From Chamaesiphon sp. GL140_3_metabinner_129_sub (GTDB taxonomy: Bacteria; Cyanobacteriota; Cyanobacteriia; Cyanobacteriales; Chamaesiphonaceae), in assembly GCA_025358725.1 (NCBI GenBank), contig JANYIT010000324.1, forward strand, positions 1 through 35,351: 35,351 bases of DNA, given 5' to 3'. This document shows positions 8,719-32,710 of the stretch, piece after piece (the first letter of the stretch is position 1; the number at the start of each line of letters is the position of its first letter). The notes under the pieces are model-generated. The model did not search any database. It was given only the letters and a program-made list of their open reading frames with translations, and was not told the DNA's origin. Position numbers and translations under genes: made by a program.

Positions 8719-9915
8719 TTATCGTTTTGGTGCGCGATCAAAAGCTCGCGCGATCGCCTTCCATGCTAATTTAGGTTTCATCTCTCGATCGAATGGTAAA
8801 GGTCGAACAGGCGATCGATCGTCACGCGGAAATCTGTCTGATAGCCAACTATATCGATCGCTCAAACCCCAATTAACCACCGCAATTACCGATTTTTCAG
8901 CTAAAGCAGCAGTGAGATAATCTTCATATACTCCGGCGATCAGTCGATCTCGTTTAGTTACATCGATCGGCAAATTGTTGTCAGATACATCCAGCTCAGT
9001 AATCATAATTTTTAGCCCCAAGCTAGTGACATTCCGCAGAAATTTTCTAAACTGCTGCGGTTTAAAATCACTAGCACCATTCAAGTGAGACTGAATTCCC
9101 AAAGCATGTATTGGTGTACCTTTAGATTTGAGGTTCCTGAGTAGTTTCAGCACAGCAGCCTGTTGGACTGGGTTTTCTAGGTTGGTTTCATTGTAGACCA
9201 GCAAAGCCCGTGGATCCGATCTTGCGGCAATCCGAAATGCCAGATCGATAAAATTTGAACCTACATATTTTACCCATAGATCGTTTCTTAAACCATCAGA
9301 TCGACCATCGCCAACATCAATTGCTTCATTAACTACATCCCACGAATGCATTTTTCCGGCATAACGCTTCACCACAGTTTCAATATGATGAGTAAAAATT
9401 TGCTTGGCATTTTGATGATTTATTGTGCTTTCTAGCCAGCTAGGCAAGGCATCATAATAGATCAAAGGATGTCCCCGCAACAACATCTGATGATCGGCGG
9501 CAAACTTAGCAAAATAATCAGCTCTTTCAAAGTTAAACGTATCGACACTCGGACGAATCTGACTCCAATAAACTCCTGCTACCATCAAGCCACAGTCCCG
9601 AGCGAAAATAGACCGCAAGGTTGGATCATCTTTAAAGTTCTGATGATCGGCTTCTGGAAAAGCTCCATAAATTAAGCCTTTTGCCTTTGCTCTATTTTTG
9701 AGAGAATTCTTCCCAACTATTTTGAAAGTTCTCCGCTCGGAATCTTTGATTCTCTGTTGTAACCCCTTGCCTGGTGCATCAGTAAATAGATAAATTAGGT
9801 AACTTAATACTTTTAATTTACCTAATGACAAAACAGCCAAAGCCGTTACAGAGCTAATCCCGATCTGCAAAGCTTGTCGCCTAGATAGTAAGCGGTTTCG
9901 AGAAAATTTAACCAT
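8719..9915 (-). CDS. GH10 family endo-beta-1,4-xylanase-like enzyme, Tat-type N-terminus
   Basis: This 398-residue glycoside hydrolase has a (beta/alpha)8 fold. The acid/base Glu197 is in SWDVVNEAID and the nucleophile Glu307 in LKIMITELDVSD. Other GH10 landmarks are RGHPLIYYDALPSWL (usually RGHTLVWH...PSW), ALGIQSHLNG and NWGLSDRYSWL. The N-terminus has a twin-arginine motif (LLSRRQALQIG) before a hydrophobic stretch, so it is probably exported by Tat or left anchored in the membrane. The replacement of VWH by IYY in the substrate-cleft loop suggests a substrate other than plain xylan. It is on the same strand as the glycan block, 301 bases beyond the epimerase gene, which fits a role in trimming or remodelling an exopolysaccharide. 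That role is inferred. Confidence 0.88.
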   Translation of the reverse strand: MVKFSRNRLLSRRQALQIGISSVTALAVLSLGKLKVLSYLIYLFTDAPGKGLQQRIKDSERRTFKIVGKNSLKNRAKAKGLIYGAFPEADHQNFKDDPTLRSIFARDCGLMVAGVYWSQIRPSVDTFNFERADYFAKFAADHQMLLRGHPLIYYDALPSWLESTINHQNAKQIFTHHIETVVKRYAGKMHSWDVVNEAIDVGDGRSDGLRNDLWVKYVGSNFIDLAFRIAARSDPRALLVYNETNLENPVQQAAVLKLLRNLKSKGTPIHALGIQSHLNGASDFKPQQFRKFLRNVTSLGLKIMITELDVSDNNLPIDVTKRDRLIAGVYEDYLTAALAEKSVIAVVNWGLSDRYSWLSDRFPRDDRSPVRPLPFDREMKPKLAWKAIARAFDRAPKR

Positions 9916-10216: not shown

Positions 10217-11173
10217 CTATTTTTTCAGTTGAGCGTCGATCCATTTGTAAGTATCGGACATTCCTTGTTCTAAAGTGATGTTAGGCGACCAACCCAGCTT
10301 TGCTTGAATCAGGGTGTTGTCTGAGTTTCGGCCTTTAGGTCCGACAGGTTTGGTCAGATCGTACTTACAGTGAATCTTCTTACCAGAAATATCACTAATC
10401 ATGGCAATCAACTCATTGATTGTGACCATCCGATCTGAACCTAGATTGAGTGGGATGGTGACATCTGAGTTCATGATCCGAATGCAACCTTCTACGCAAT
10501 CATCGACATAACAATAAGAGCGCGCCTGAGTACCATCGCCCCAAACCTCAATTTCACCCTCATTGCCTTCGATTTTGGCAATTTTCCGACAGAGTGCGGC
10601 TGGAGACTTTTCTCTCCCCCCGTCGTAGGTGCCTAATGGGCCGTAGATATTGTGAAAGCGAGCCACTTTGATATTCAAACCGTAAGACTTGCGATAGGTT
10701 TCATGCATCATCTCCGCAGTCAATTTTTCCCAACCATATTCCATATCAGGATCGGCAGGAAAAACTTTATCTTCTTTCAGACCTGGGCTATCATTTGTCT
10801 CTTGTAAATAATTTGGGTATACACAAGCGGAGGATGAATAAAAAATATTTTCTACTCCACTTAAGCGACAAGCTTCTAATGTATTTGTAGACATCAGGAG
10901 ATTGTCATGGAGAATCTCGGCTGGCGCAGCATGAGTCCAACCAATACCCCCCATATTAGCAGCCAAGCAATATGCGGTATCTACATCTCTGGTCGCTTTG
11001 AGACAATCATCCTGTCTTCTGAGATCTAAAATTTCAAATTCATCAGCACAGGTTTCATCAAATTCAGGACGTTTGACATCTACTCCTCTCACCCAAAAAC
11101 CCTGCTCTTTCAGTCTTTTAACCAAGTGAGAACCGATAAATCCACCTGCACCACCGACTAGAATTTTTTTCAT
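10217..11173 (-). CDS. GDP-mannose 3,5-epimerase homologue (extended SDR)
   Basis: The 318-residue SDR protein has a Rossmann NAD site GGAGGFIG (residues 7-14) and the pair Tyr146/Lys150 in MEYGWEK. Its closest recognisable relative is plant GDP-D-mannose 3,5-epimerase: SSACVYP, RFHNIYGPLGTYDGGREKSPAAL, WGDGTQARSYCYVDDCVEG, NLGSD, GPKGRNSDN and KLGWSPN all match. The epimerase acid/base residues are conserved with the same spacing as in the Arabidopsis enzyme (Cys145, Tyr174, Lys217): here Cys117, Tyr146, Lys189. It should convert GDP-D-mannose to GDP-L-galactose and/or GDP-L-gulose, supplying an unusual sugar to the glycosyltransferases upstream in the same run. The ATG at 11173 gives a full Rossmann start. 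Confidence 0.87.
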   Translation of the reverse strand: MKKILVGGAGGFIGSHLVKRLKEQGFWVRGVDVKRPEFDETCADEFEILDLRRQDDCLKATRDVDTAYCLAANMGGIGWTHAAPAEILHDNLLMSTNTLEACRLSGVENIFYSSSACVYPNYLQETNDSPGLKEDKVFPADPDMEYGWEKLTAEMMHETYRKSYGLNIKVARFHNIYGPLGTYDGGREKSPAALCRKIAKIEGNEGEIEVWGDGTQARSYCYVDDCVEGCIRIMNSDVTIPLNLGSDRMVTINELIAMISDISGKKIHCKYDLTKPVGPKGRNSDNTLIQAKLGWSPNITLEQGMSDTYKWIDAQLKK

Positions 11174-11232
11174 TTTATTTTTGTTTGATAATTACAGCTT
11201 AAGTCTACGTTGCCTGGAAATATTGGGAGAAT

Positions 11233-12006
11233 TTAGATTTTTCGAGTGTTAAATTTCTTCAGACCCACGACCTGCAAAAAGAACATCCATAGAAAAATAA
11301 CATTATATAATGTATATCGTTTCCACAATCTTTTTGGATCTTGAAACAATCTAAATAGCCATTCAAATCCTGACTTTTGGATTAAAACTGGAGCCTGATT
11401 AATCGTGCCACCAAAAAAATCAAATGCTGCTCCAGAGGCAATCATGATCGTCCCTGGAATTTTATCTAAATGTGCTTGCATCCATCTATCTTGCTTAGGA
11501 GATCCTAATCCGACAATAATGAAATCAGGATTTGTCTGATTAATTTGCGCACAAATTTCTCGATCTTCTGCTGGTGTTAATTGTCTAAATGGAGGTGAAT
11601 ATGCTCCGACAATATTTATACCCGGAAACTTGTTTTCGAGAAATGATTGCATTTTTTCGGGAACACCTTCAGCACCACCGTACAAATATAACCGATAATT
11701 AGATTGAAGGCTTCTTTCGCACAATTTCAAAATGATATCTGGTGCATAAAGACGATCGCATCTTTCACCAGTCAAAAGTTTAATCCAGTATACAAATGGC
11801 ATACTATCTGCACCTGAAATATCAGCCTTATCAAAAATCTCTGCTATTTCAGGATTCAAATAGCTCTCAACAGCACAGTTGACATTTAAACAAGCAACAT
11901 GTTTGGATTTGGCTTGCTTATCTTGTAGCCAGTCATCACACCGTTCAAATAATTTGTTGTAGGTGATTGCATCTACACGAGTACCAATAAAATTACATGT
12001 TTTCAT
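11233..12006 (-). CDS. WecG/TagA/CpsF family glycosyltransferase (GT26)
   Basis: The 257 residues match the WecG/TagA/CpsF fold. Features are LNVNCAVESYLNP, the conserved aspartate in ADISGADSMPFVYW (Asp67), RLYLYGGAEGVPEKMQSFLENKFPGINIVGAYSPPF, IIVGLGSPKQDRWMQAHLDKI, GAAFDFFGGTINQAP and the C-terminal membrane-targeting tail GFEWLFRLFQDPKRLWKRY. Members add the second sugar (for example ManNAcA or ManNAc) onto an undecaprenyl-linked first sugar. That fits the initiating sugar-phosphate transferase at 31253 and the flippase at 14925. The epimerase gene follows 59 bases on. A 414-base AT-rich gap lies upstream, so this gene may start its own transcript. Confidence 0.92.
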   Translation of the reverse strand: MKTCNFIGTRVDAITYNKLFERCDDWLQDKQAKSKHVACLNVNCAVESYLNPEIAEIFDKADISGADSMPFVYWIKLLTGERCDRLYAPDIILKLCERSLQSNYRLYLYGGAEGVPEKMQSFLENKFPGINIVGAYSPPFRQLTPAEDREICAQINQTNPDFIIVGLGSPKQDRWMQAHLDKIPGTIMIASGAAFDFFGGTINQAPVLIQKSGFEWLFRLFQDPKRLWKRYTLYNVIFLWMFFLQVVGLKKFNTRKI

Positions 12007-12420
12007 ATTTTTGATCGAGAACTCTTTTTGTGCTTTTTAATTCATCATTTATAATAAAACAATCCCAAAGTAGAACTTAAAGATTTATGTATGAAGGATA
12101 ATTACCGAACCGAAGTTGGTTTGATTGCTGAGATTATCCATTAATAACTTTTGATCGTTACATCAACTAATTTGGATAGCAAATGTGTACTGTTTGGTAT
12201 CGACCATCTAAATTATAATAAACTATTAGTCCTGATTAGATCGTCAGCCATTAGGCTTAAACGATTAATATATATTATACATTTTTTATTGGCATCATTA
12301 TGTTTAGGTTAGTTCAATCAAAACAAAGATTATATAATTAATTTCACCAGCTTCCTAGATCTATATTTATCATTTTTTATTTATCCGAATAGTATTTCTT
12401 GTGGTTCTATAGATATTGCT
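12007..12420. other. AT-rich gap within the glycan run
   Basis: These 414 bases hold no open frame with protein character. The side next to the WecG-family gene reads, on the minus strand, GTTTTATTATAAATGATG about 45 bases before its ATG. This contains a -10-like TTATAA/TATAAA but no clear -35. A separate promoter for the last two genes is plausible. Nothing else was seen. Confidence 0.4.
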
Positions 12421-13503
12421 TTATCTGTCGATTGTATTATCAAGGCACTCTGTAAAAATATTTACTAATCGAACACAATACTTACTTACTTCAAAAGGAC
12501 TAACTGCTTCTTTAGCCGCACTTCCTAAAGATAGCCTCAAATGTTCATTGTCGATTAAAGATTGCATTATATCTGACAATTGTTTGATCTCGCCAGGATT
12601 TACTAATAGACCATTTACACCCGAGATTACTAACTCAGGAATACCACCTACTGGTGTCGTGATCGTCGGTAATTGCCAACTCATTGCCTCCAGTAGTGCC
12701 ATTGGCAGACCTTCATTGTAAGAAGGCAATACAAAGACATCTGCACTCGCTAAAAGTTCATTTCTTTGCTGTTCATCTACCCAGTCTAAAATTGTAATGT
12801 ATTGATTTAAATTAAGTTTCTCTATTAAATCTCTTGCTCTTTCACCTTCTCCATCACCTGCCATAATCAATCGAGCATTCTGTTTTTTAGCCAAAGGAAT
12901 TGAATCAAAAGCATCGATTAAATCGAATGCTCCTTTTCGTTCACCAATTCTGCCTAAAAATAGAAAAGTAACCTTTTTAGAATTAATTCTATGAGGAACT
13001 TTTATCGGAAATTTAACAGGATTAGGCAGGACAATTACTCGTTCTGCTTTTAGTCCAAGATTCTCTACGTAGAATTTCTTCCAACTATGCGACAAAACAA
13101 TAAATCTGGTTGATTTACAAAATGTCCATCTTAATCCAAGTCTAACTATCGGTGGTAGATTAGCATAAAATACATGAAAATCAGCACTATGACTATGAAG
13201 GACTACTGGCTTACGAAACAGCCAAGCGATCGTCGTGGTACATGCTTGACGAAAAGCACTACCTCTCTCTGCAACATGAATATGTACGAGATCGACTTCT
13301 GTTGTCAAGAGTCGCCAGGATAATAATCCTAAAGCTTGAATAAATACTAATATTTTACGTGCTGTCGATCCATTTGGTAATGTAACAATATGATGAATTT
13401 CGATCTGATTAGGCGTATTATTCAATATCAATTTTTGAACAGAAACTATGCCACCCGATCGATCTAAACTTTCCCCTAGCATGAGAATTTGGATTTTGTT
13501 CAT
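12421..13503 (-). CDS. GT4 family glycosyltransferase
   Basis: The 360 residues form a two-domain GT-B enzyme. The N-terminal acceptor domain has the glycine-rich loop LDRSGGIVSVQKL and VDLVHIHVAERGSAFRQA. The linker is VIVLPNPV and the donor domain starts FLFLGRIGERKGAFDLIDAF. The GT4 EX7E motif is intact: Glu264 and Glu272 in NEGLPMALLEAMSWQLPTI. It should be a retaining, cytoplasmic, membrane-associated enzyme adding one sugar of the repeat unit. The donor and acceptor cannot be read from the sequence. It lies between the Wzy-like gene (108 bases upstream) and the AT-rich gap. Confidence 0.92.
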   Translation of the reverse strand: MNKIQILMLGESLDRSGGIVSVQKLILNNTPNQIEIHHIVTLPNGSTARKILVFIQALGLLSWRLLTTEVDLVHIHVAERGSAFRQACTTTIAWLFRKPVVLHSHSADFHVFYANLPPIVRLGLRWTFCKSTRFIVLSHSWKKFYVENLGLKAERVIVLPNPVKFPIKVPHRINSKKVTFLFLGRIGERKGAFDLIDAFDSIPLAKKQNARLIMAGDGEGERARDLIEKLNLNQYITILDWVDEQQRNELLASADVFVLPSYNEGLPMALLEAMSWQLPTITTPVGGIPELVISGVNGLLVNPGEIKQLSDIMQSLIDNEHLRLSLGSAAKEAVSPFEVSKYCVRLVNIFTECLDNTIDR

Positions 13504-13611
13504 TGCTAATCTATATATATTTTGTATGCAAATATTGAATACGATAATAGCCGCTTAATTGCTCTCGAAAATCGTAAATCAATTGAATCCAGGGTAACCA
13601 TCAAAATAATA

Positions 13612-14874
13612 TTATGCTTCCTCCAGAACTGAATCGACCATGCTACTTGATGTTGGGATGGAGAGAGAGAAAAATACTGACAATTGTAAAACCCACAAAA
13701 AGTTATTTTGTAATACTAAAACACTTTCTGTTAAATTTGATAAGACAATATAAGAAAGCAGTAGTATTGGCCAAAATGCTTCTGATGTTTTGGTGTTTTT
13801 GATATATATTAGTGATTTTTGAAAACTAATAATGTATTGAATCGTATAAATTAAAAGTCCAACTAATCCTAGTTCGAGGCAAAGATCTAGATAACCATTA
13901 TGACCGTTGGGAGCTTTGAATTCGGATGCATTCAAGACATAGGCAGAAGGACCATCTAATCCTTGCCAAAATGCACCATATCCATAGCCTAACCAAGGAT
14001 TTTCCCAAATTTTGTCCAACATTAGCGGCCAAAAATTTGTGCGGCCAGTAAATGTTAGATCTTTGCCCAATGCACCTACAAGTTGTTCGGAATTAGCTGC
14101 AATTAATAAGTAAAAGAGTATCCCAATTGATGTCATTCCAATTATGATCGGAACCATGAAAAGATAGTTCCAGCGTAAAATAGGTAAAATAGCTAACAAG
14201 CTCAGCAAGATGATCAGGTTAATTATCGGTGACGCTGCTTTTGTAAATATCATTAGCATTACTGATGCACCGAGTAGACTCCAAAAAATCCACCGCTGTT
14301 TTGGAGAGATTAATGCCAAAAGGTAAAAGACAATAGCACTAGGAACCATGATTTTACCAAGAACATTCTTGTGATTATAAATGCCACGCCAAGCTCCGAC
14401 ATGAAAGCCACCCATCACTCCATACTTCGGCAGTAATACTACAAATAGTAGACTAGTAAAAATAATGATGCCAAAGATCCAACCCAGTAAATATAGCTGT
14501 TCCTTTAAACTATAGCGACTGGATAAATAAAGTGAAAACATGATTGTACCAGTCAATGCAATCACGCGAGTTCTGGTTAAATCTGGTGAATACGACCAAA
14601 AGATGGAAAATACAGCTAATCCTAATAACAACCAGATAAATTGACTTTTTAAAATTACGAGTATCACTTTTTGCCACCTTAAAATCAACAGACAAAAAGT
14701 GATCAGATAAATCAATAGAAATATTTGATTAATAGAGGGTAGCTCAGGAGTAGTGTCAGGAAACTCACCCTCGCTTACTCCATTAGTAAAAATTACAAAT
14801 AATGGTCCTCCTGAATAATGAATAAAAGAAATAATCGCGAATATTTTTTCGGATAAGATTAATAGCTTATTCAT
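13612..14874 (-). CDS. O-antigen ligase/Wzy-like polymerase family membrane protein
   Basis: The 420 residues have about ten to twelve hydrophobic segments, short loops and one longer periplasmic loop, the standard layout of the Wzy_C (O-antigen ligase/polymerase) family. The loop contains DLTFTGRTNFWPLMLDKIWENPWLGYGYGAFW and then FKAPNGHNGYLDLCLELGLVGLLIY. The GRxxFW and GHNGYLDLxLELGLxG patterns carry the arginine and histidine thought to act on the polyprenyl-linked donor. It either polymerises the repeat unit (Wzy) or transfers the finished glycan to an acceptor (WaaL-like); sequence alone does not separate these. It is 50 bases after the flippase gene on the same strand. Confidence 0.88.
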   Translation of the reverse strand: MNKLLILSEKIFAIISFIHYSGGPLFVIFTNGVSEGEFPDTTPELPSINQIFLLIYLITFCLLILRWQKVILVILKSQFIWLLLGLAVFSIFWSYSPDLTRTRVIALTGTIMFSLYLSSRYSLKEQLYLLGWIFGIIIFTSLLFVVLLPKYGVMGGFHVGAWRGIYNHKNVLGKIMVPSAIVFYLLALISPKQRWIFWSLLGASVMLMIFTKAASPIINLIILLSLLAILPILRWNYLFMVPIIIGMTSIGILFYLLIAANSEQLVGALGKDLTFTGRTNFWPLMLDKIWENPWLGYGYGAFWQGLDGPSAYVLNASEFKAPNGHNGYLDLCLELGLVGLLIYTIQYIISFQKSLIYIKNTKTSEAFWPILLLSYIVLSNLTESVLVLQNNFLWVLQLSVFFSLSIPTSSSMVDSVLEEA

Positions 14875-14924
14875 GGCTGTAAGTATTGCAATAACTCATT
14901 TTCTCATTCTATAATCTGCATCCA

Positions 14925-16256
14925 TCATTTTTGCTTGTCTTGGACAAAGATATTTAAAGCTAATGCTTTTGTCATAACCCAACCAAATTTACGTGCTGGT
15001 GGATAGATAAAGCACACAATATAATCTGCAAATAAATAAGAAATGACTGTTGCAATAGCTGCGCCCAATTCTTTGTAGATCGGGATTAGCCAAAAATTTA
15101 AGCCAATATTCATTGCTGCACCGATAAAACTAGCTGTCATCGCAAATATAGTCAACTCTTCTGCCGCCACCCAAATTTGCCTGACGTTACCAAAAAACAA
15201 CCAGATCGAGGACCAAATATGGATTGACAATATTACACCAGCAGGAGCGTAACTTTCACCAAATACAAAAACAACTATTGGTGTTGCAAAAAATGTTGTA
15301 GGAATAGCTACACCATAAAATATCAGTGCCAATAAGTTACAAAGCTTTTGCATTTTTTGATAGTATGCTTTCTCACTGATCTGCTTTGCTTCCATAATAT
15401 AAGGGGTTACCGATCTAGTAATTGCTAGAACAAGCCACGCCCAATTCTCTGATAATTTTACTGCTACTGCATAGATACCTACAGCATGGGAATCAGCTAG
15501 TTGTCCGATCATGATTTGATCTACATTTAGATAAATCATCACTGATAAGCTGGAAAATATTAACGGCCAGCTTACTTTAACTAGTTTAATAGCACGCTGT
15601 TTGTTAACATGCCATTTTTGAATTTTTTGTCCGGTGATTTGATAAGCAACGATACAAGTAATTGTCGCTAAAACACTCTCCACCAAGATCAACACAGCAA
15701 AAGCAATCAGTGGTGCTTGGATCTGGATTAATACAACCCTGCCCAATGTAGCAATTAGAAAAGCTGTATAGCTTGAGATGATTGAATATTTTGACTGAAC
15801 CTGAGATTGAAACCAAGTATCGATATTATCAGGTAACGTTTGAAAAAGTAGGGAACTTGACATAATCAGGACGATCATCCGCGCTGTTGGATCGTCGGGG
15901 CGTAGCCAAAAAATTACGCCGATTAATAAGCAAAAAGAGACAATTCCACTAATAAACTGTACAAAAGCTGCGGTACCAAGTACTTCATATCGATTAGATG
16001 GTTCGTTTACTGAGTCGCGGAGCACAAAATGGCTGATACCCATTTGAGCGATATTGGCAGAAATAGCTGCCAGTGCAAACCCATAATTTAAGGTTCCAAA
16101 TTGTTCTACTCCCAAATAGCGAGCCATCCAAGCAGCTACCACAACAGCTAAACCTGCTCGCAAGATACGCCCGCCGATCAACCAGCTCATATTAGCAAGT
16201 ATCTTGCGGATGTTAGGACTAAGATTTTTAATTGTGCTGTTTAATTTATTTAACAT
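14925..16256 (-). CDS. Wzx-like polysaccharide/oligosaccharide flippase
   Basis: This 443-residue polytopic protein of the MOP superfamily has about 12 hydrophobic segments. The typical start is NMSWLIGGRILRAGLAVVVAAWMARYLGVEQFGTLNYGFALAAI. LNVDQIMIGQLADSHAVGIYAVAVKLSENW carries the family's mid-protein VDxxMIG motif, and the C-terminus has AAMNIGLNFWLIPIYKELGAAIATVISY. It should flip the undecaprenyl-linked unit made by the neighbouring glycosyltransferases to the outside. It is distinct from the MurJ at 1427, which serves peptidoglycan. A cargo that carries the NRPS/PKS product is possible but not shown. Confidence 0.93.
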   Translation of the reverse strand: MLNKLNSTIKNLSPNIRKILANMSWLIGGRILRAGLAVVVAAWMARYLGVEQFGTLNYGFALAAISANIAQMGISHFVLRDSVNEPSNRYEVLGTAAFVQFISGIVSFCLLIGVIFWLRPDDPTARMIVLIMSSSLLFQTLPDNIDTWFQSQVQSKYSIISSYTAFLIATLGRVVLIQIQAPLIAFAVLILVESVLATITCIVAYQITGQKIQKWHVNKQRAIKLVKVSWPLIFSSLSVMIYLNVDQIMIGQLADSHAVGIYAVAVKLSENWAWLVLAITRSVTPYIMEAKQISEKAYYQKMQKLCNLLALIFYGVAIPTTFFATPIVVFVFGESYAPAGVILSIHIWSSIWLFFGNVRQIWVAAEELTIFAMTASFIGAAMNIGLNFWLIPIYKELGAAIATVISYLFADYIVCFIYPPARKFGWVMTKALALNIFVQDKQK

Positions 16257-16393
16257 TTGACTTAAAATAGATTATGCTATATTTCATGCAATTTTAGATA
16301 GTAAATAATTAATTAATAACGCAATCAAAAATATGATATCTATCTTAAATTGCTTGTGAATTTTTTATTCAAAAATCTAGTGATCGATATTAA

Positions 16394-17491
16394 TCAATCA
16401 AAATCAAACAATTGTTGATACTTTATTAAAGCAGCTTCTAAAGAAAACTCTTGACCCCTTCTTCTCAACAATTCAGCATCGAGCGGGTTTTTCAAGGTAT
16501 CGATCATGGCTGTTGCTAAACCTTGAATATCTCCGACTTTTACTAAGGTACCATATTTACCATCAGCTAAAATTTCAGAAGGGCCACTTTCACAATCAGT
16601 AGAAACTACGGGGGTTCCTGCGAGCATTCCTTCTACAAGGACATTACCAAAGCCCTCAAATATTGAAGTCATTACCAGTACTTTAGCTTTTGGCATGTAA
16701 GCATAAGGATTGGCTACAAATCCTGGAAAAGCTACATTATCAACTAAATTGAGCTGCTGAACTAGCACTTCTAAATCGGGGAGTTCTTCTCCTTGTCCCA
16801 AAATCATCAATCTGACATTGTATTGCTTTTGAACTAATGCAAAAGCACGGATCAGGGTAGAAAAATCTTTTTGTTTAGTTAACCGTCCTACACCTAAAAT
16901 CACAGGTGGTTGGTGTTCTAAAAACCAAGGATGGTTGACTGGTTCGTGAAATTTTTCGAGCAGATCGGGAGTGAAAATTGGATTGTATATTACTTGAATA
17001 TTTTTTGAAGGTAGCCCACTCAACTTTTCGACATCATCAGCAACACCTTGTGATACTGAAACGACATTATTGGCAAAGGGGAACAACCAACGGACAAAAA
17101 AAGGTATGAGTTTAGATTTTAAATCATTCGATTGTTTGTAACTACAAGAAAGATGATTGTGGACAGTAACTATTAAGCGAGTAGGTACACGAGCGAGTAT
17201 TTTGGCAATAATTGATAACGTATTTGGATCTTCTAATGCAGAAATAAAAACTTTGGGGCGATTTTTCTTTAAATAGCTAACTAGTAAAGGTAGACTAGTA
17301 ATTAGTCTAGAACTTGAGAAGTTTATTAATCGCACATTTGGTGAAATAAGCTCTAGATATTCTCCTTCGAGTTTAACGATAACTAAATCTACTTTTAGCC
17401 CCTTTTCTGCAAACCCACTTGCTAAACTTAACATGACTTTTTCTGCACCGCCACCTTCAAGATTAACTAAGAAAAAGGCTATATCTGTCAT
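16394..17491 (-). CDS. GT4 family glycosyltransferase
   Basis: The 365-residue GT-B enzyme opens DIAFFLVNLEGGGAEKVMLSLA, the glycine-rich N-terminal loop of GT4 enzymes. It continues with VVSVSQGVADDV, IYNPI and the donor-domain start ILGVGRLTKQKDFSTLIRAFA. EX7E is intact at Glu279 and Glu287 (FEGFGNVLVEGML), followed by GTPVVSTDCESGPSEIL. It is a retaining sugar transferase of unknown donor. It is the first glycan gene after the NRPS-TE gene (126-base gap) and carries a clean Shine-Dalgarno AGGAG (17499-17503 on the plus strand) seven bases before its ATG, so it is translated independently of its upstream neighbour. Confidence 0.92.
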   Translation of the reverse strand: MTDIAFFLVNLEGGGAEKVMLSLASGFAEKGLKVDLVIVKLEGEYLELISPNVRLINFSSSRLITSLPLLVSYLKKNRPKVFISALEDPNTLSIIAKILARVPTRLIVTVHNHLSCSYKQSNDLKSKLIPFFVRWLFPFANNVVSVSQGVADDVEKLSGLPSKNIQVIYNPIFTPDLLEKFHEPVNHPWFLEHQPPVILGVGRLTKQKDFSTLIRAFALVQKQYNVRLMILGQGEELPDLEVLVQQLNLVDNVAFPGFVANPYAYMPKAKVLVMTSIFEGFGNVLVEGMLAGTPVVSTDCESGPSEILADGKYGTLVKVGDIQGLATAMIDTLKNPLDAELLRRRGQEFSLEAALIKYQQLFDFD

Positions 17492-17498
17492 TTGATAA

Positions 17499-17503
17499 CT
17501 CCT
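17499..17503 (-). promoter_or_regulatory. Strong Shine-Dalgarno of the GT4 gene
   Basis: AGGAG on the minus strand lies seven bases before the ATG at 17491. Most other starts in this cluster lack a site this clear, so this gene is probably well translated. Confidence 0.7.
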
Positions 17504-17617
17504 GATAAAAATCTGTACAATAAATACAAATCACAATACATATATATTTATCTATTAAAAAGAATTATTTGGATAATTCAGATAAAATGTGTAAACAAAG
17601 TGTATTTATAAAATATT

Positions 17618-20600: not shown

Positions 20601-21685
20601 AAACTCCCAAATGTAAACTCTTGGTGATCGTAAGCATCTAAAATAGTTGCTCGACGGACTTTTAAGTATTCAGCGAAAGATGCTTGACTGTCAATTTTGG
20701 TGCGTAGCGGTAATAAATTTACGCAGTGTCCCACTAGTCGATCTTGCCCTGCCGCAGGTTGTCCCGCCGCAGGGAGTCCGACAATCAAATCATTTTGTCC
20801 TGTCAGTCGATGCAACCAGACCTCAAATCCAGCCAAAATAGTCGTCACCAAGCTACACCCAAATTTGGTGCCGAGCTGTTTGAGCTGGCTGACTAATTCG
20901 GGAGCTAAGTCTCGGTATTCACAGGTAGCATCATAAGTTCGGAGTGGTGGACGGGGGCGATCTGTGGGAAAGTCAACCACTGGCACCGAGTCAGCAAATT
21001 GAGCAAGCCAGTATTCTTCGATTTCGATCCCTTCTGGCTGCTGCGCTGCGGCTGCTTTGGCAATGGCATAGTCACTAAATTTTTCGGGAGCTGATAAATC
21101 GGCAATCGTGCCCTGATGGTAAGCAGCATATAACTTGCTGAGATCTTCGAGCAGCACGGCCAAAGACCAGCCGTCACAGATAATATGGTGGACATTGAGC
21201 AGCAGCAAATGTTCGCAAGCGTGCAATTTGATAATTTGTACGCTCAATAGTGGCCCTTTGACAATATCAAATGCTTGGTTGACATCTTGGTTCAATATTT
21301 GTGCCAGTTTGGCATCGCGGGCCGCTACTGTTAGGGCCGAAAGATCGATCAAGGGAATTTCGATTTTCAGGCTTGCCAGAATACACAATGTTTCGCCATG
21401 CGGACTAAAAGTTGTCCTCAGTGATTCATGTCTTTGCACTAATTGTTGGAGCGCAAATTCGAGAGCCGATCGATCCAGTTCGCCAGTTAATCGCAGTGAT
21501 TCAGACAGATTAGCTGCGCGATTAGCTGCATCCCCCATTTGGACGGACAGCCAAATTTCTGTTTGAGACTCGGTCGCTGGCGCAGTTAATAACAATTCAC
21601 CATCGGCAAACGGATCGAAGTCAACAGCAATTAATCTAGGCTGGGAAATTAACTTAGATGGAGGATCGATACAGACTGAATTCAT
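17618..21685 (-). CDS. NRPS termination module: C - A(Gly) - PCP - TE
   Basis: This 1355-residue single-module NRPS should be the last step of the line. The condensation domain (about 30-470) has an intact HHIICDG (166-172). The adenylation domain (about 490-985) has TSGSTGKPKG (641-650), YGPTE and NGKVDR with Lys977. The PCP (about 1005-1070) has GGHSLL with Ser1034 for phosphopantetheine. The thioesterase (about 1090-1350) has GFSLGG with Ser1165, Asp1192 and His1329. Hand alignment to GrsA gives the specificity residues D686 I687 L690 Q729 L752 G754 M776 I784 W785 K977. DILQLGMIWK is one residue from the known glycine code DILQLGLIW. The C domain carries a tandem PAAGQPAAGQ (305-314). It should join Gly to the amine product of the PKS and release it by hydrolysis, cyclisation or transfer. 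Confidence 0.95.
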   Translation of the reverse strand: MNSVCIDPPSKLISQPRLIAVDFDPFADGELLLTAPATESQTEIWLSVQMGDAANRAANLSESLRLTGELDRSALEFALQQLVQRHESLRTTFSPHGETLCILASLKIEIPLIDLSALTVAARDAKLAQILNQDVNQAFDIVKGPLLSVQIIKLHACEHLLLLNVHHIICDGWSLAVLLEDLSKLYAAYHQGTIADLSAPEKFSDYAIAKAAAAQQPEGIEIEEYWLAQFADSVPVVDFPTDRPRPPLRTYDATCEYRDLAPELVSQLKQLGTKFGCSLVTTILAGFEVWLHRLTGQNDLIVGLPAAGQPAAGQDRLVGHCVNLLPLRTKIDSQASFAEYLKVRRATILDAYDHQEFTFGSLMSKLALPRDPSRIPLVPIIFNLDRAGDLLSFPGLEIASFTNPRDFGNFELFVNALEINGKIVLECRYNTNLFDAATIKRRLAELETLLSGIVAHPSQSIAKLPLLAAPEQQQLIVDWNATQATYPDAKCLHQLVEAQVKLTPQAIAVVYQDEQITYAELDRQANQLANYLVDLGVRTETFVGICVERSLKLVVGLLGILKAGGAYVPIDPNYPLDRIEYMLETAQIEVLLTQQPLVDHLPTQINQIVCLDTDWAKIAQTSAVTPLVNITAENIAYVIFTSGSTGKPKGVEVRHRGVVNFLTSMQQQPGIAATDILLSVTTLSFDIAVLEIFLPMTVGARVVLLSREDAMDGRKLAATIDRSAITIMQATPATWQLLLAAAWQGNQHLKILSGGEPITHDLAAQLLSKSAAVWNMYGPTETTIWSTIHQINADERRIPIGKPIANTQIYILDCQLQPLPIGIPGELYIGGDGLARGYLNRPDLNLERFIPNPFTASGKLYKTGDLARYLPDGNIECLGRIDNQVKVRGFRIELGEIETVISQHPIVREVRVIDREDRPGDKRLVGYVILQSQEYPTDSGSIVGRELQTFLRSKLPDYMIPSAFVMIDALPLTPNGKVDRQALPVPEYNRQESEDIFVAPRNELELQLTKIWERVLGVQSIGIRDNFFELGGHSLLAVKIFNEIEKTLNKNILLSTLFHAQTIEDLAEVFEHKESAKTWQSLVQIKTGSPTKAPLFCMHAIWGNILFYRNFAQYLETDRSVYGLQSKGLDGQYPLCTSIPEMAANYIQEIQRVQPQGPYLLTGFSLGGLIAFEVAQQLQAQGQEIQLLALLDPASPTLTTSDADINAVAQTSLLTKTVSHLRTMLKLSLKDQITYVWERLYWNLTVGHANMLRKAYLRYIKRSITELRLLDVFWANYLTQFSYIPKQYVGKVTLFKSTDPGIGGEDNSESEWKFLASDGVDIESMPGSHIEIMEEPNVTILCAKFSSYLAHEQEC

Positions 21686-27006: not shown

Positions 27007-30000
27007 TTATCTCCGACGACGAGCATTCGCTGCTTTTTGCTGCTGAGCACGATTTTTGAGTTGTAGCTCGGATTGTTGACTCTGTTGTTCGCCATTCAAA
27101 TATGCAGCTAATCTGGCAATTGTTGGATACTGAAATAGCTTGACAACAGCTATTTCAATCCCACCCAATTGCTGTTGAATTCCTGCGGCAACTTGAAGAA
27201 TAGAGATTGAATGTCCACCCAATTCAAAGAAATTGCGATCGATCCCAATCTGTTGTTGACCTAAAACTTCCGACCAAATGGCGACGAGGATTTCTTCTGT
27301 TGGATTTCTGGGTGCAGATCCAGTGGCTAAATTGCGTTGAGTTGAATTGGGTGGCGATCGATGATTGGATGATGATAAAACAGGATCACTACCGAGCAGC
27401 CGACTCTCGATTTTATTTGCCAACAATGCCCGTCGATCGACTTTACCGTTAATTGTCAGTGGCAATGCTTTGACGATCGCAAACGTCGTCGGCAACATGT
27501 ATATGGGTAGTTGTTGAGCTAGAAATTCACGCAGTTCATCAATTGTGAGTTGATGATTTTGGGTAACTAAATAAGCTACTAATCGTCTATCCCCAGGTAG
27601 ATCCTCACGGACAATTACGGTGTTTTCATCGATCGCCGGATGTTGACTCAGCACAGCTTCGATCTCGCCTAGCTCGATCCGAAATCCGCGAATTTTGACC
27701 TGAGTATCGATCCGTCCGAGATACTCCAGAGTGCCATCTGCCAAATAACGCGCCAAGTCACCAGTTCGATATAGTCGTGCGGTTGGATCTTGACTGAAAG
27801 GGTGCTGAATAAATCGCGCTGTTGTCAATTCATTTCGCCGCCAATAGCCCTGTGCTACGCCAGCACCACCTATATACATTTCACCACTGATCCCGATCGG
27901 TACAGGCTGAAGATAGGCATCTAAGAGGTAAACTTGTAAGTCAGGAATCGGTCGTCCGATCAAACTCCCAGTAGCGTTGACATCCTCACGAGTCAGCGGA
28001 CGATAAGTGACATGCACGGTAGTTTCGGTAATCCCATACATATTAACCAATTGAGGCACTGTATCGCCATGTCGATCAAACCAAGGTGCTAAACTAGCTA
28101 AGTTCAGTGCTTCACCCCCAAAAATGATCAGTCGCAAGCTTAATTGCTCGCTTAGATCCAACCGTTGATCGATCTTGATTAATTGATAAAAAGCGGATGG
28201 CGTTTGGTTGAGCACTGTAACTCGCTCGGATACGAGTAATTGGTAAAATGCGGTGGGATCTCGACTTACCAAATAGGGCACGATCACAACTCGTCCACCA
28301 TAAAATAATGCGCCCCAGATTTCCCAGACAGAAAAGTCAAAGGCGAAAGAATGAAATAGTGTCCAAACATCCCGCTCGTTAAAACGGTACCAATCTTCGG
28401 TAGCGGTAAATAACCGAACAACATTATCATGATTGACCAATACACCTTTAGGCTGTCCGGTCGATCCTGATGTATAAATCACATAAGCCAAATTATGCGA
28501 TTGTCCACGATCGGCTAGATTAGCAGTAGGATACTCACCAATCACCTGAAGATCTGTATCTAAACAAATAACCTGTTCACAACTAGGCAAATTAGTCAGC
28601 AAGACAGATTCAGTTACCAAGATTTTGACTTGGGCATCGGTGAGGATGTATTCTAATCGATCAGCAGGATTGCTCGGATCTAGCGGGAGATAGGCTCCAC
28701 CCGCTTTGAGAATTCCCAAAATTCCGACGATTGTCTCGATCGATCGTTCGACGCAGATCCCCACCAATTCAGCCACCTGCACGCCCAATTCTTGTAAGTG
28801 GTGCGCCAATTGATTTGCTCGACTATTTAACTCTCGATAGGTAAGCTGTTCTCCTTCAAAACAGATCGCGATTCGATCGGGATGTTGGGCTACCTGCTCC
28901 TCAAACAAGTGATGGATACATTTACCCAAACAGTAGTCTTGAAGCAAATCTCCAGCTCCAATCAGATGCTGTCGCTCGATCTCAGTCAATAATGGTAATT
29001 CGGAGATTGACTGTGTTGGGTTGGCGACAATTGCCGTTAGTAAATTGTGGAAATGCCCATTCAATCGATCGATCGTCGCCGCATCAAATAAGTCTGAATT
29101 GTAGATCCATTGCCCCTCTAATCTCTGACTAGTTTGTTTGAAAAATAACGTGAGATCGAACTTGGCGGTGTCCCGTTCATTCGTCCACGGAATGGCGGTA
29201 AGACTAGAAAGCTCAATCTTGTCAAAGGGCAAATCCGCCTCAAACACAAAGGTTACTTGAAGCTGTAAATCTTCAATTAGCTCGATCGGGACTGTTTGAT
29301 GACTCTGTGCTAAAGTAACAACCCGATCCACCTGTTTAACCAACGCTTGAAATGATGGATTGCTGGCTAAATCAGTCCGCACCGCTACCGCATTTACAAA
29401 AATTTCGGCATCAATCCGCTCGATCGTGGGAATACCCACAATCAGATCTTCTGTGCCCGTATAGCGGTAGAGCAGAGTATTAAATATTGTCAGTAGTGTG
29501 GTAGATAGCGTAGTACCTTGCTGCTGACTGAGCAAATTGAGTGCTGTAGTTAGCTCTCGATCTATCGCAAAAGATTTAGACTTGCCCTGAAAAGTCTGTA
29601 GTAATTGTCTGGGGCGATCGATGGGCAGTGATAATAATTCTGACGCTCCGCCCAGTTGTGCTTGCCAGTAAGCTAATGAAGATTGAATCGGTAACTCGCG
29701 CAATTGTGCGCGTAAAGCCAACTCTGCCGACGCATGAACTTCTCGATCGATTAATTCCAATCGCGGATCGTAATTTAACAGCAATCGCAGATTCCCTAAT
29801 GCCGCCACCCAGTTTTTAGCCTGAACACAGCGCATCATCTCATAAGGTAGTCGATCTCCATAAAATTTGATCGCAGCCGATCTACCACATTCATAAGCCG
29901 TCAGATCGGCTCCATTACCAGCTTGTTGCAGATAATCCCACTCCAAATCGTAAGCCTGTAACGTAATCATCAGCATTTTTGCAGACTGACTAGATACATT

Positions 30001-30645
30001 ACTCCCGTGGTAACGATATTCAGACACTACTTGATCGTGAAAGTAAATCGGAAACTTTCGCCCAACGCGAAGATATAAATTCAGATCCTCCATCACGATC
30101 TCACTTGACTCAAACCCTCCCACAGTATCGATCGCCACTCGCCGAAACATTGCAGCAGCACACTGGATCTTGTGTTCGCCAGCTAAAACAGTTGCATAGC
30201 TAGCTACGATGGGTGGCTCATCAAAGAGTTTTTGGGTTGTATACGATCCATCGGGATTCATGACTTGGAATAGATATCTACCAAAAACAAAGCCAGCATC
30301 AGGATGAGCATTCAGGCAATTTATGCCAATTTCAATAGCCTCAGGCAACAGACAATCGTCACTATCGAGAAAAATTAGAGCCGATCCCTGGCTAACGCTA
30401 ATCCCCGTATTTCTAGCCCCAGCAAGACCCTGATTACTTTGGTAAATATATTTTACAGTTGGATAGCGATCGCAAACTAGCTTCGTGTCATCAGTTGAAC
30501 CATCATCAACAATAACAATCTCGACATCTGGGTAGGTTTGATTGATGACACTCTCAATTGCTGCTGGTAAAAATTTACCACTGTTATATGCTGGAATTAT
30601 AACGGAGACACTACCGTAGTTCAAGTTAGCTAAAGGTTGATGCAT
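27007..30645 (-). CDS. GT2 glycosyltransferase fused to half C domain - A(Thr) - PCP
   Basis: This 1212-residue fusion is the first gene of the line. Residues 10-245 are a GT2 (GT-A) glycosyltransferase: VSVIIPAYNSGKFLPAAIESV, VDDGSTDD (46-53), DSDD (94-97, metal-binding DxD) and the base region MEDLNLYLRVG (185-195). A helical stretch follows. Residues 316-555 match only the C-terminal lobe of a condensation domain, from SSLAYWQAQLGGASELLSLPIDRPR through DLIVGIPT and LFDAATIDRL; the lobe with HHxxxDG is absent. The A domain (575-1075) has TSGSTGQPKG (725-734) and code D770 F771 W774 N813 I841 G843 M869 V877 H878 K1068. This is DFWNIGMVHK, the threonine code. The PCP has GGHSIS (Ser1146), followed by a basic Gln/Ala/Arg tail. 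It should load Thr for the PKS. The GT2 acceptor is unknown; the Thr hydroxyl is an attractive guess. Confidence 0.95.
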   Translation of the reverse strand: MHQPLANLNYGSVSVIIPAYNSGKFLPAAIESVINQTYPDVEIVIVDDGSTDDTKLVCDRYPTVKYIYQSNQGLAGARNTGISVSQGSALIFLDSDDCLLPEAIEIGINCLNAHPDAGFVFGRYLFQVMNPDGSYTTQKLFDEPPIVASYATVLAGEHKIQCAAAMFRRVAIDTVGGFESSEIVMEDLNLYLRVGRKFPIYFHDQVVSEYRYHGSNVSSQSAKMLMITLQAYDLEWDYLQQAGNGADLTAYECGRSAAIKFYGDRLPYEMMRCVQAKNWVAALGNLRLLLNYDPRLELIDREVHASAELALRAQLRELPIQSSLAYWQAQLGGASELLSLPIDRPRQLLQTFQGKSKSFAIDRELTTALNLLSQQQGTTLSTTLLTIFNTLLYRYTGTEDLIVGIPTIERIDAEIFVNAVAVRTDLASNPSFQALVKQVDRVVTLAQSHQTVPIELIEDLQLQVTFVFEADLPFDKIELSSLTAIPWTNERDTAKFDLTLFFKQTSQRLEGQWIYNSDLFDAATIDRLNGHFHNLLTAIVANPTQSISELPLLTEIERQHLIGAGDLLQDYCLGKCIHHLFEEQVAQHPDRIAICFEGEQLTYRELNSRANQLAHHLQELGVQVAELVGICVERSIETIVGILGILKAGGAYLPLDPSNPADRLEYILTDAQVKILVTESVLLTNLPSCEQVICLDTDLQVIGEYPTANLADRGQSHNLAYVIYTSGSTGQPKGVLVNHDNVVRLFTATEDWYRFNERDVWTLFHSFAFDFSVWEIWGALFYGGRVVIVPYLVSRDPTAFYQLLVSERVTVLNQTPSAFYQLIKIDQRLDLSEQLSLRLIIFGGEALNLASLAPWFDRHGDTVPQLVNMYGITETTVHVTYRPLTREDVNATGSLIGRPIPDLQVYLLDAYLQPVPIGISGEMYIGGAGVAQGYWRRNELTTARFIQHPFSQDPTARLYRTGDLARYLADGTLEYLGRIDTQVKIRGFRIELGEIEAVLSQHPAIDENTVIVREDLPGDRRLVAYLVTQNHQLTIDELREFLAQQLPIYMLPTTFAIVKALPLTINGKVDRRALLANKIESRLLGSDPVLSSSNHRSPPNSTQRNLATGSAPRNPTEEILVAIWSEVLGQQQIGIDRNFFELGGHSISILQVAAGIQQQLGGIEIAVVKLFQYPTIARLAAYLNGEQQSQQSELQLKNRAQQQKAANARRRR

Positions 30646-31252: not shown

Positions 31253-32710
31253 ATGACCGATCTAAAAAAATCGGATAACACAGTTAATCTGTGGCAGACA
31301 GAAGATATTCGGGCGCGAAATCTATCAATTCGGTGGCAAACACTGATTACGAGCTTACAACTGATTATTTTAGTATTACTCGACACGGCGATGCTATTTG
31401 TGTCATGGACTGTCGCAGATCATCTTGGTACGCCCACCGTTGGTTTGCATATCGCTGACTCAATGATCCCAATTCTGGCAGTTAGTATCGGCACTCTTAC
31501 AGCATCAGGATTTTATGGAACTGATGATAAACTTCACCGATTTGCCAAGTTGTTCAGATCGTTGACGCTGGCACAAATTGTTGTATTAATCGCCGCTTTT
31601 TTCTACCAACCTGAATTATGGGTATCTCGTTCAGTTTTTTTGATTGCTTGGGTGCTAAATTTTTTCTTTGTTAGTTCGGCGAGATTATTGCTTGATTTCT
31701 GCACCATTCAGCTTCGCAAGCGCAATCCAATTTTCCAACAATCGATCGTCCTGGTGGGCAATCAAGTCGATATTGAGCATGTCAAAAAATTATTGAAGCG
31801 ATCCCGACAATTTAAAGTTGATAGTGTCATCGACTTGTCAGTTTGGGATATCCAACGTCAATTAGAACAGATTATCGCTCAAATTCGATCGCGTAACATT
31901 AGTGAGGTTTTTATTTGTTCTCAACAATTAATCGATAATCAAATTATCTTTTTTTGGAATTTAAAAGCAGCCGGAATTCATCTCAGAATAGTACCAACTG
32001 AACTAGAACTACCTCAACGATCTGCTGAGACCAAGATGATCGAAGAAATCCCCACTATTCGCTTTAAATCTTTACCAATTTTTGGGTTTAATTTTTGGTT
32101 GAAACGTATCCTCGATCTAATCGCCGCATCACTGATTTTATTAACCATATCACCGATTTTTTTACTAGTTGCAATTCTGGTCAAAAAAACATCTCCTGGA
32201 CCAATTTTTTACAAGCAGTATCGTGTTGGTTTAAAAGGTCGCCGCTTCCAAGTCTGGAAATTTCGGACGATGGTAGAAAATGCTAACGAACTGCAAAAAG
32301 AGCTAGAAGCGCAAAATGAAATTAAAGGTGGAGTCCTATTTAAAATCAAAGATGATCCTCGGATCACCAAAATTGGTAAATTCTTGCGCGACTATAGCAT
32401 CGACGAATTGCCACAATTGATCAATGTTTTGCAAGGAGAAATGAGTTTGGTTGGGCCACGTCCACTGCCCATCAGAGACTACGAGTTATCAATCCAAAAT
32501 GTCGCACAATTTTCTCGCGATCGATTTCTACGTTATGAAGTTTTACCTGGGATTACTGGGCTATGGCAAGTTAAAGGACGTGCGACCATTGAATCAGATG
32601 AAATTTTTTATTGGGATATGATTTATATTCTCCAATGGTCACTCACTCTCGATTTTAGAATTTTGCTCCAAACTATTAAGGTAGTCTTATTTAAGAAAGG
32701 ATCTTATTAA
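31253..32710 (+). CDS. Polyprenyl-phosphate sugar-1-phosphate transferase (WbaP/WcaJ type)
   Basis: The 485-residue enzyme should start lipid-linked glycan synthesis by moving a hexose-1-phosphate from a UDP-sugar to undecaprenyl phosphate. Residues 1-150 hold about four membrane segments. Residues 160-260 form a Rossmann-like CoA_binding_3-type domain (SIVLVGNQ...). The catalytic bacterial sugar transferase domain (280-485) starts FWLKRILDLIAASLILLTISPIFLLVAI and holds SPGPIFYKQYRVGLKGRRFQVWKFRTM, DDPRITKIGKFLRDYSIDELPQLINVLQGEMSLVGPRP (Asp384/Glu385) and GITGLWQVKGR. HIP1 (GCGATCGC) lies immediately before the ATG and GGAG is a usable Shine-Dalgarno. It is divergent from the NRPS/PKS and glycan run and is its likely initiating enzyme. 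The sugar is not predicted. Confidence 0.94.
   Translation: MTDLKKSDNTVNLWQTEDIRARNLSIRWQTLITSLQLIILVLLDTAMLFVSWTVADHLGTPTVGLHIADSMIPILAVSIGTLTASGFYGTDDKLHRFAKLFRSLTLAQIVVLIAAFFYQPELWVSRSVFLIAWVLNFFFVSSARLLLDFCTIQLRKRNPIFQQSIVLVGNQVDIEHVKKLLKRSRQFKVDSVIDLSVWDIQRQLEQIIAQIRSRNISEVFICSQQLIDNQIIFFWNLKAAGIHLRIVPTELELPQRSAETKMIEEIPTIRFKSLPIFGFNFWLKRILDLIAASLILLTISPIFLLVAILVKKTSPGPIFYKQYRVGLKGRRFQVWKFRTMVENANELQKELEAQNEIKGGVLFKIKDDPRITKIGKFLRDYSIDELPQLINVLQGEMSLVGPRPLPIRDYELSIQNVAQFSRDRFLRYEVLPGITGLWQVKGRATIESDEIFYWDMIYILQWSLTLDFRILLQTIKVVLFKKGSY

Follow-up and report, generated by a model that had tools for sequence, protein, structure and literature searches.

What does a glycosyltransferase do at the head of a nonribosomal peptide synthetase (NRPS)? 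The question is raised by P1, a 1212-residue protein encoded on the minus strand, from an ATG start codon, at 27007..30645 of a Chamaesiphon contig of 35,351 nucleotides (the whole stretch that was analysed, hereafter the window). Pfam matches and motifs place in it, from the N-terminus, a GT2 glycosyltransferase, half a condensation (C) domain, an A domain and a PCP, the architecture given in a preliminary description of the locus. The coordinates in that description, 28981-30645, hold for the GT2 plus the half C; the open reading frame itself continues to 27007. The GT2 core (residues 14-173, minus strand 30127..30606) matched Glycos_transf_2 with an E value of 4.8e-36, scored 124.7 bits against PF00535 (cut-off 23.3) and has kept its DxD motif, with DDGSTD at residue 47 and DSDD at residue 94; its best solved relative is chondroitin synthase 2z87. 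It is followed by a conserved tail (residues 231-315, minus strand 29701..29955), which forms one unit with the GT2 in the relatives of P1. The half C (residues 320-561, minus strand 28963..29688) matched only positions 191-455 of the 456 of the Condensation profile (E 3.3e-40) and residues 190-448 of Txo1 (E 1.6e-36), that is, the C-lobe. P1 lacks the two lobes and the HHxxxDG of a full condensation domain, the latter motif being found nowhere in the protein, as had been noted. The A domain (residues 581-1068, minus strand 27442..28905; AMP-binding 581-935, AMP-binding_C 994-1068) carries the ten-letter code DFWNIGMVHK, which we take to specify Thr, and the PCP (PP-binding, residues 1119-1183, minus strand 27097..27291) has LGGHS at residue 1142. 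An A-PCP pair without a working C domain, first in line, is what defines an NRPS loading module; gene order and the position of the release domain indicate that P1 would act first. The domain content thus supports the claim that P1 is a loading module carrying a GT2 in cis together with a C-lobe that is catalytically inactive.

Since the window's assembly is in 408 contigs, we considered whether misassembly or a frameshift had made the fusion. Position 29700 shows neither a direct repeat nor a break in base composition. A tblastn search of the window with four N-lobe queries found no C-domain N-lobe near P1 in any frame: the significant matches all lay at 21041-21610, in the C domain of another synthetase, P3, and a single chance match occurred at 16739-16885 (E 0.58). 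The same fusion, which the preliminary description had suggested looking for in other cyanobacteria, recurred: relatives of P1 were identified in 23 genomes, and the same join occurs in assemblies of few contigs such as G733 (1 contig), G677 (4) and G280 (6). Because the relatives are spread over 23 genomes, some of one to six contigs, P1 is not an artefact, and the chance that an assembly or reading-frame error made it is negligible. The GT2-to-half-C stretch was matched end to end, in one open frame and at 55-69% identity, at six other loci. In two of these six, G167 and G114, one stop lies within the longer profile match; in either case the frame stays open for 1446-1449 aa once the start codon is reached. 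A scan of contigs yielded at least 80 loci, of which L056 and L057 were annotated, no others among the matches listed having 62% identity. None of 1587 matching plasmid records covered 80% of the query; a match on an Aulosira laxa plasmid came from another GT2 gene, separated by 17 bp from a following synthetase whose C domain is full. P1 belongs to a conserved family of cyanobacterial NRPS loading modules headed by a GT2 with intact motifs, to which the C-lobe of a former condensation domain, an A domain and a PCP are attached.

We then asked whether the leftover lobe does nothing but support the A domain as a platform, as had been proposed. Among the 24 family genes the half C was present in 18, gone from 5 and unseen in 1; on the GT2 tree its absence from the five genes requires at least three changes, and the A domain was never lost (the test for half-C remnants left out the linker of the second L041 copy). 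Where the half C is present, dN/dS values of 0.115-0.272 in 7 of 8 pairs indicate that it is under purifying selection. The A domain, for its part, has been exchanged between Thr-type and Gly-type while GT2 and half C stayed joined. Of the 22 starter codes tabulated, a set without L050 (cut by a contig end) and L211, 21 were of either the Thr or the Gly type and 12 of the Gly type, on what we presume to be the correct Thr and Gly assignments. The idea of a dedicated A-domain platform is weakened by this exchange and by the loss of the half C without loss of the A domain, and we did not retain it.

Where did the half C come from? In a tree of C-lobes, one branch (support 99/96) separated 16 fused and 3 unfused half C domains from 36 full C domains, and the full C domains nearest the half-C family were those that lie within L043, itself a fused protein. 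An earlier tree was built without the long branches L008, L009 and the C domain of P3; the later one, which holds the 99/96 branch, additionally went without L202, the second half C of L042 and L010b, and L047, whose reading frame is broken within the half C, stood outside the C-lobe trees. On the best tree the half-C family has a single origin near ordinary condensation domains. Such an origin fits the recombination of a GT2 gene into a C-A-PCP module, which was the initial proposal and is compatible with the half-C tree. In the reverse order, a loading module would have lost its N-lobe first and a neighbouring GT2 gene would have joined it later through loss of a stop codon. This would account for the N-terminal half C domains without GT2 in L172-L174, L009, L042 (16788-20000) and L202 and for a standalone GT2 near such a synthetase in G248, and the AU test leaves it room, a fused-only clade not being rejected with either of two trees (p 0.229 and p 0.104). 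However, the best tree places the unfused L172-L174 within the fused clade, with the fused L043 branching first, beside its own full C domains, and a fused-only group appeared in just 2% of bootstrap trees. We regard the half-C-first order as rather unlikely. The unfused synthetases were also considered as ancestors of the fused ones, which the best tree does not favour and the AU test permits.

The neighbourhood of P1 bears on its function. P1 heads a co-directional block of ten genes, P1-P3 and seven sugar genes, all on the minus strand. P2 (21942..26891, 1649 aa) is a KS-AT-ACP-aminotransferase (class III) protein, and P3 (17618..21685, 1355 aa) consists of a full C domain (HHIICDG), an A domain, a PCP and a TE; the P3 code, DILQLGMIWK, we read as Gly. 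The three-protein line is thus GT2-half C-A(Thr)-PCP, KS-AT-ACP-aminotransferase and C-A(Gly)-PCP-TE. Behind it lie a GT4-type glycosyltransferase (16394..17491), a Wzx-type flippase (Polysacc_synt, 14925..16256), a Wzy_C/O-antigen ligase-type polymerase (13612..14874), a second GT4-type glycosyltransferase (12421..13503), a WecG/TagA/CpsF glycosyltransferase (11233..12006), an NAD-dependent sugar epimerase/dehydratase (10217..11173) and, last, a GH10 glycoside hydrolase (8719..9915). Divergent from P1, on the plus strand at 31253..32710, is a polyprenyl glycosylphosphotransferase (Bac_transf; TIGR03025 above cut-off). The window thus holds phosphotransferase, flippase and polymerase together, the mark of a Wzx/Wzy exopolysaccharide (EPS) locus. 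Across the family, 13 of the 23 genomes had EPS initiation, polymerase or flippase genes close to the GT2-headed synthetase, and 12 of these had a homologue of the window's phosphotransferase; in a fourteenth, G733, a flippase lies directly behind the synthetase. In 8 of the 23 genomes the 10-50 kb examined showed no homologue of the initiation, polymerase or flippase genes of the window's EPS locus, and in G677 and G678 the multi-module members are not part of EPS loci. Within the operons of L042 and L051 there are genes for PF01757 membrane acyltransferases.

Could the GT2 be a mere passenger, fixed in the fusion by chance and acting on a substrate unrelated to that of the NRPS? In one EPS-linked gene, the L041 copy at 11760-19829, the DxD motif of the GT2 has been lost and the A domain kept, and the fusion also occurs in the eight genomes where EPS genes were not seen. 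Against this, the GT2 is constrained (dN/dS 0.09-0.43 over eight pairs) and the same junction persists in several families, and we consider a passenger role quite improbable.

The product is most likely, at a confidence somewhat short of even, a glycan bearing an aminoacyl or peptidyl group, made by GT2 and NRPS/PKS on one scaffold. The A domain of P1 would load Thr onto the PCP, P2 would add a two-carbon unit and convert its keto group to an amine, P3 would add Gly, and the TE of P3 would hand the acyl chain to a sugar rather than to water. The GT2 would add sugar to a lipid-linked glycan begun by the neighbouring phosphotransferase, and a single scaffold would thereby hold both the glycan and the peptide chemistry. 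The half C would have no bond-forming role and would be a dispensable relic, serving as spacer and fold at the joint. The architecture with its intact motifs, the EPS setting in the window and beyond, the PF01757 genes and the persistence of the GT2-half C pair under changing A domains all argue for this reading. Single-module forms of the family, GT2-half C-A(Gly)-PCP-TE, alone make no peptide, and transfer to another molecule is consequently a sensible end for them. The genomes without EPS genes seen nearby and the L041 copy with its degenerate GT2 argue against it, as does the TE, which shows no feature favouring sugars over water; the confinement of starter codes to two types hints that the loaded residue may matter upstream. 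A broader version, unlikely as it stands, is a class of glycan-peptide hybrid megaenzymes in which the EPS repeat unit would be sugared and peptidylated on one scaffold, with starter A and extension modules swapped under a fixed GT2-half C head to give variable surface decorations.

The GT2 might instead glycosylate the PCP-loaded starter residue, the product being a secreted glycopeptide or glyco-polyketide, with EPS genes serving to provide or export sugars. As in LgrA, a domain at the N-terminus of a loading module usually modifies the loaded residue; in linear gramicidin synthetase an N-terminal formyltransferase reportedly formylates it. The narrow range of starter codes and the multi-module members outside EPS loci point the same way, as does a formyltransferase-half C-A protein in the window's own genome. 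Yet in the 12 of 22 genes whose code is Gly-type the amine is the sole acceptor, one GT2 family is used irrespective of the loaded residue, and the EPS genes in 13 genomes would be incidental. If the codes are read correctly, those of the Gly type rule out O-glycosylation of the loaded residue as the common role. We hold starter glycosylation to be possible and less probable than the glycan-acyl product.

How does P1 compare with known systems? A full-text search of the open-licence literature yielded no description of a GT2-NRPS fusion, in agreement with the initial impression that such a synthetase is undescribed. In LgrA a formyltransferase stands in place of the GT2, and no half C is known to intervene; its structures (6mfz, 5es5) share with P1 a tailoring enzyme fused ahead of a loading A-PCP. 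Other half-C loading modules occur in the window's own genome. One, L008 (12123-17546; formyltransferase-half C-A-MT-PCP-TE), resembles P1 in that a tailoring enzyme precedes a lone C-lobe (profile 189-455) and an A domain, but its enzyme is different and its C-lobe, on a long branch, falls outside the GT2 family. The order of P2 is that of mycosubtilin/iturin-type modules, also KS-AT-ACP-aminotransferase, whose starter is a fatty acid, whereas that of the present line is an amino acid. The window has the phosphotransferase, glycosyltransferases, flippase and polymerase of Wzx/Wzy-type EPS loci, in which NRPS/PKS genes are not known to be usual. The DltABCD proteins follow the same scheme as AlmEFG and are likewise separate proteins; among the window proteins scanned there was no membrane transferase of the Dlt/Alm kind, and in P1 A domain and carrier are fused. 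AlmEFG, which transfers glycine to lipid A (PMC4790380), resembles our proposal in that an amino acid is attached to a glycolipid or polymer of the cell surface by means of an adenylating enzyme and a carrier protein; as presented in that account, it differs in being made of separate small proteins with a membrane/acyl transferase, and no TE or GT2 in cis figures there. Half-C loading modules without GT2 are already known, for example in the thermoactinoamide synthetase ThdA, drawn with a truncated, probably inactive C domain before A-PCP (PMC7253712); as depicted there, ThdA shares that arrangement with P1, has no glycosyltransferase and makes a free peptide.

Loading modules with a fused tailoring enzyme are thus known, and among the papers searched none described a glycosyltransferase in that place. 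The exchange of A domains casts doubt on the notion that a C-lobe has to remain with its own A domain, and a natural GT2-half C head with exchanged A domains would be useful for NRPS engineering. To our knowledge, the enzymes for amino-acid- or peptide-bearing polysaccharides are largely unassigned. If the EPS link is true, it would provide a genetic route to such polymers, and the family suggests an unrecognised way to join sugars and peptides.

P1, the GT2-half C-A-PCP synthetase, is encoded on the minus strand (27007-30645) as a single open frame of 1212 residues. Pfam assigns residues 14-173 to a GT2 domain, which resembles chondroitin synthase 2z87 (E 7.8e-30), and residues 320-561 to a Condensation domain that covers only positions 191-455 of the 456 in the profile; a complete A domain and then a PCP follow. 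Solved C domains match the half C from about residue 190 onward (Txo1, 190-448). The preliminary description had claimed that HHxxxDG is absent, and indeed P1 lacks the motif; the C domain of P3 has HHIICDG. A tblastn search with four N-lobes found none near P1 and detected P3's own N-lobe. Eleven residues, the SxSPLF stretch among them, are missing from the half C of the window (28963-29688) and of two relatives (L041, L042) and are kept by the other fused half Cs.

A truncated C domain has already been published for the ThdA loading module (PMC7253712). Full-text literature searches returned no description of a GT2 ahead of an NRPS loading module. Tailoring enzymes ahead of loading modules are known, LgrA being an example. 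The window's own genome encodes a second loader with a tailoring enzyme and a half C, formyltransferase-half C-A-methyltransferase-PCP-TE in one protein (L008, contig C221, 12123-17546). Its contig C103 encodes a protein starting with a half C (profile 193-456), then A-PCP-KS-AT-ACP-aminotransferase (L009, 11453-19060). In L208 (11995-21443), on a plasmid of Aulosira laxa NIES-50, only 17 bp separate the end of a different GT2 gene from a synthetase gene whose C domain is complete and whose A domain is of the Thr type.

The same fusion, which the preliminary description had proposed to seek in other cyanobacteria, belongs to a family found in 23 genomes and, since G003 carries two, 24 genes. 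Whole-genome searches, in which a GT2 family gene counted if it was joined to an NRPS or truncated at a contig end, found it in 8/11 genomes of the window's own family, 6/29 of the genus of G280 and 8/217 of the family of G360; G025 is one further carrier. Matches above 400 bits occurred in 16 of 388 genomes drawn evenly from the order and in 5 of 386 from an overlapping draw of the phylum. The half C is present in 18 of the 24 genes (window, first copy of L041, L042-L047, L056 [Scytonema MAG, G791], L057 [Rhizonema, G789], L162-L164, L211, scored on 1.5 kb per side only, L216-L218 and L220) and absent from five (second copy of L041, L048, L049, L051, L052); in L050 the gene is cut short by the contig end. 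The second GT2-A copy of L041 (11760-19829) lies in the same locus on the opposite side of the phosphotransferase gene, and its GT2 has lost the DxD motif. In L047 (970-5345) the fused gene is split over two overlapping open frames within the half C. The window is one entire contig of a 4.39 Mb genome in 408 contigs. An assembly fault as the origin of the join is ruled out, because the join is also found in G733 (1 contig), G677 (4) and G280 (6).

In C-lobe trees, the fused rows fell into a single group with three half-C rows that lack the fusion (L172-L174; half C at the N terminus without GT2), with support of 96/96 (15 rows), 100/96 (second tree) and 99/96 (19 rows, with 36 full C domains for comparison). 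The closest full C domains were two internal ones of L043, and the other half Cs (formyltransferase-linked L008, L009, the second of L042, L202) fell outside on long branches. A fused-only group was not rejected by the AU test in two trees (p 0.229 and p 0.104). Lack of the half C requires at least three changes on the GT2 tree. Half-C remnants were detected in the linkers of L048, L051 and L052 (equalled by 2, 0 and 0 of 300 shuffles); the shuffle test found none in the L049 linker (241/300). Half-C dN/dS was 0.115-0.272 in seven of eight pairs and 0.705, at a dS of 0.018, in the eighth. The window shares 66% identity with L056 in GT2, 60% in the half C and 49% in A; with L217 the values are 58%, 54-55% and 73%. 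L217 (Thr code) and L216 (Gly code) pair in the half-C tree. These identity contrasts, together with the pairing, show that starter A domains have been swapped beneath a persistent GT2-half C head.

Beyond the P1-P2-P3 type, a line of three proteins in the window's genus, architectures comprise the single-module GT2-half C-A-PCP-TE; GT2-half C-A-PCP-C-A-PCP-C-A-PCP-TE (L043); GT2-half C-A-PCP-KS-AT-KR-ACP-C-A-PCP-TE (L216); the same without KR (L217, L218); and, with no half C, GT2-A-PCP-KS-AT-ACP-aminotransferase. All share a GT2 head and a starter A-PCP, and lines complete in the DNA examined also end in a TE. In an alignment of 22 starter A domains, nine carried DFWN(I/V)GMVHK, which we take to specify Thr, 12 carried DILQLGMVWK, presumably Gly, and one (L049) carried DVWCIAMVYK. 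The P3 code, DILQLGMIWK, is likewise taken as Gly. The limitation of starter codes to Thr or Gly favors starter glycosylation, in which the GT2 would place a sugar on the loaded residue.

In the window, P2 (KS-AT-ACP-aminotransferase) and P3 (C-A-PCP-TE) lie on the same strand as P1, and seven co-directional sugar genes come next (GT4, flippase, polymerase, GT4, WecG, epimerase, GH10); a polyprenyl glycosylphosphotransferase gene exceeding the TIGR03025 cut-off is divergent from P1. The KS cysteine and AT, ACP and TE serine motifs were all found. The GH10 gene (8719-9915), last of the block, has homologues in further exopolysaccharide (EPS) loci (L054, L055, L167, L169, L204). A homologue of the phosphotransferase lies near the family gene in 12 of the 23 genomes (G000, G002-G006, G009, G010, G025, G360, G791, G804). 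A short contig of G789 carries genes for a polymerase, a flippase and GT4 enzymes; G790 has a GT4 alone within the 1.5 kb examined, and G733 a flippase immediately behind the synthetase. No such EPS-type genes were found in 10-50 kb examined in each of the remaining eight (G011, G114, G167, G179, G208, G280, G677, G678), G280 having GT-like genes about 20 kb off. That some members lie outside EPS loci also favors starter glycosylation. A membrane acyltransferase gene (PF01757) stands between the operon's synthetase genes in L042 (4726-5859) and L051 (5296-6501).

Unfused half-C synthetases with differing starter codes also occur in EPS loci. Two genomes of one genus have equivalent half C-A-PCP-TE genes (L054, 8437-11997; L055, 8417-11923) with the codes DILQMGMIW and DIEDVGTVSK, respectively, as if a surface decoration had been switched. 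A third (L203 in G196, 11046-13609) is fragmented into short frames.

To the observed domain content, motifs, conservation and locus setting of the P1 line, general enzymology would add the following route. Thr would be loaded first and extended by a two-carbon unit, assumed to be malonyl; beta-amination would then give a 3,4-diamino-5-hydroxyhexanoyl unit, Gly would be added and the TE would release the chain. Glycosylation of the starter by the GT2 is a serious but somewhat less probable reading. Most likely, the TE hands the chain to a sugar and the GT2 acts on the glycan, since the GT2 is unchanged when the loaded residue changes and single-module Gly forms would otherwise yield nothing.
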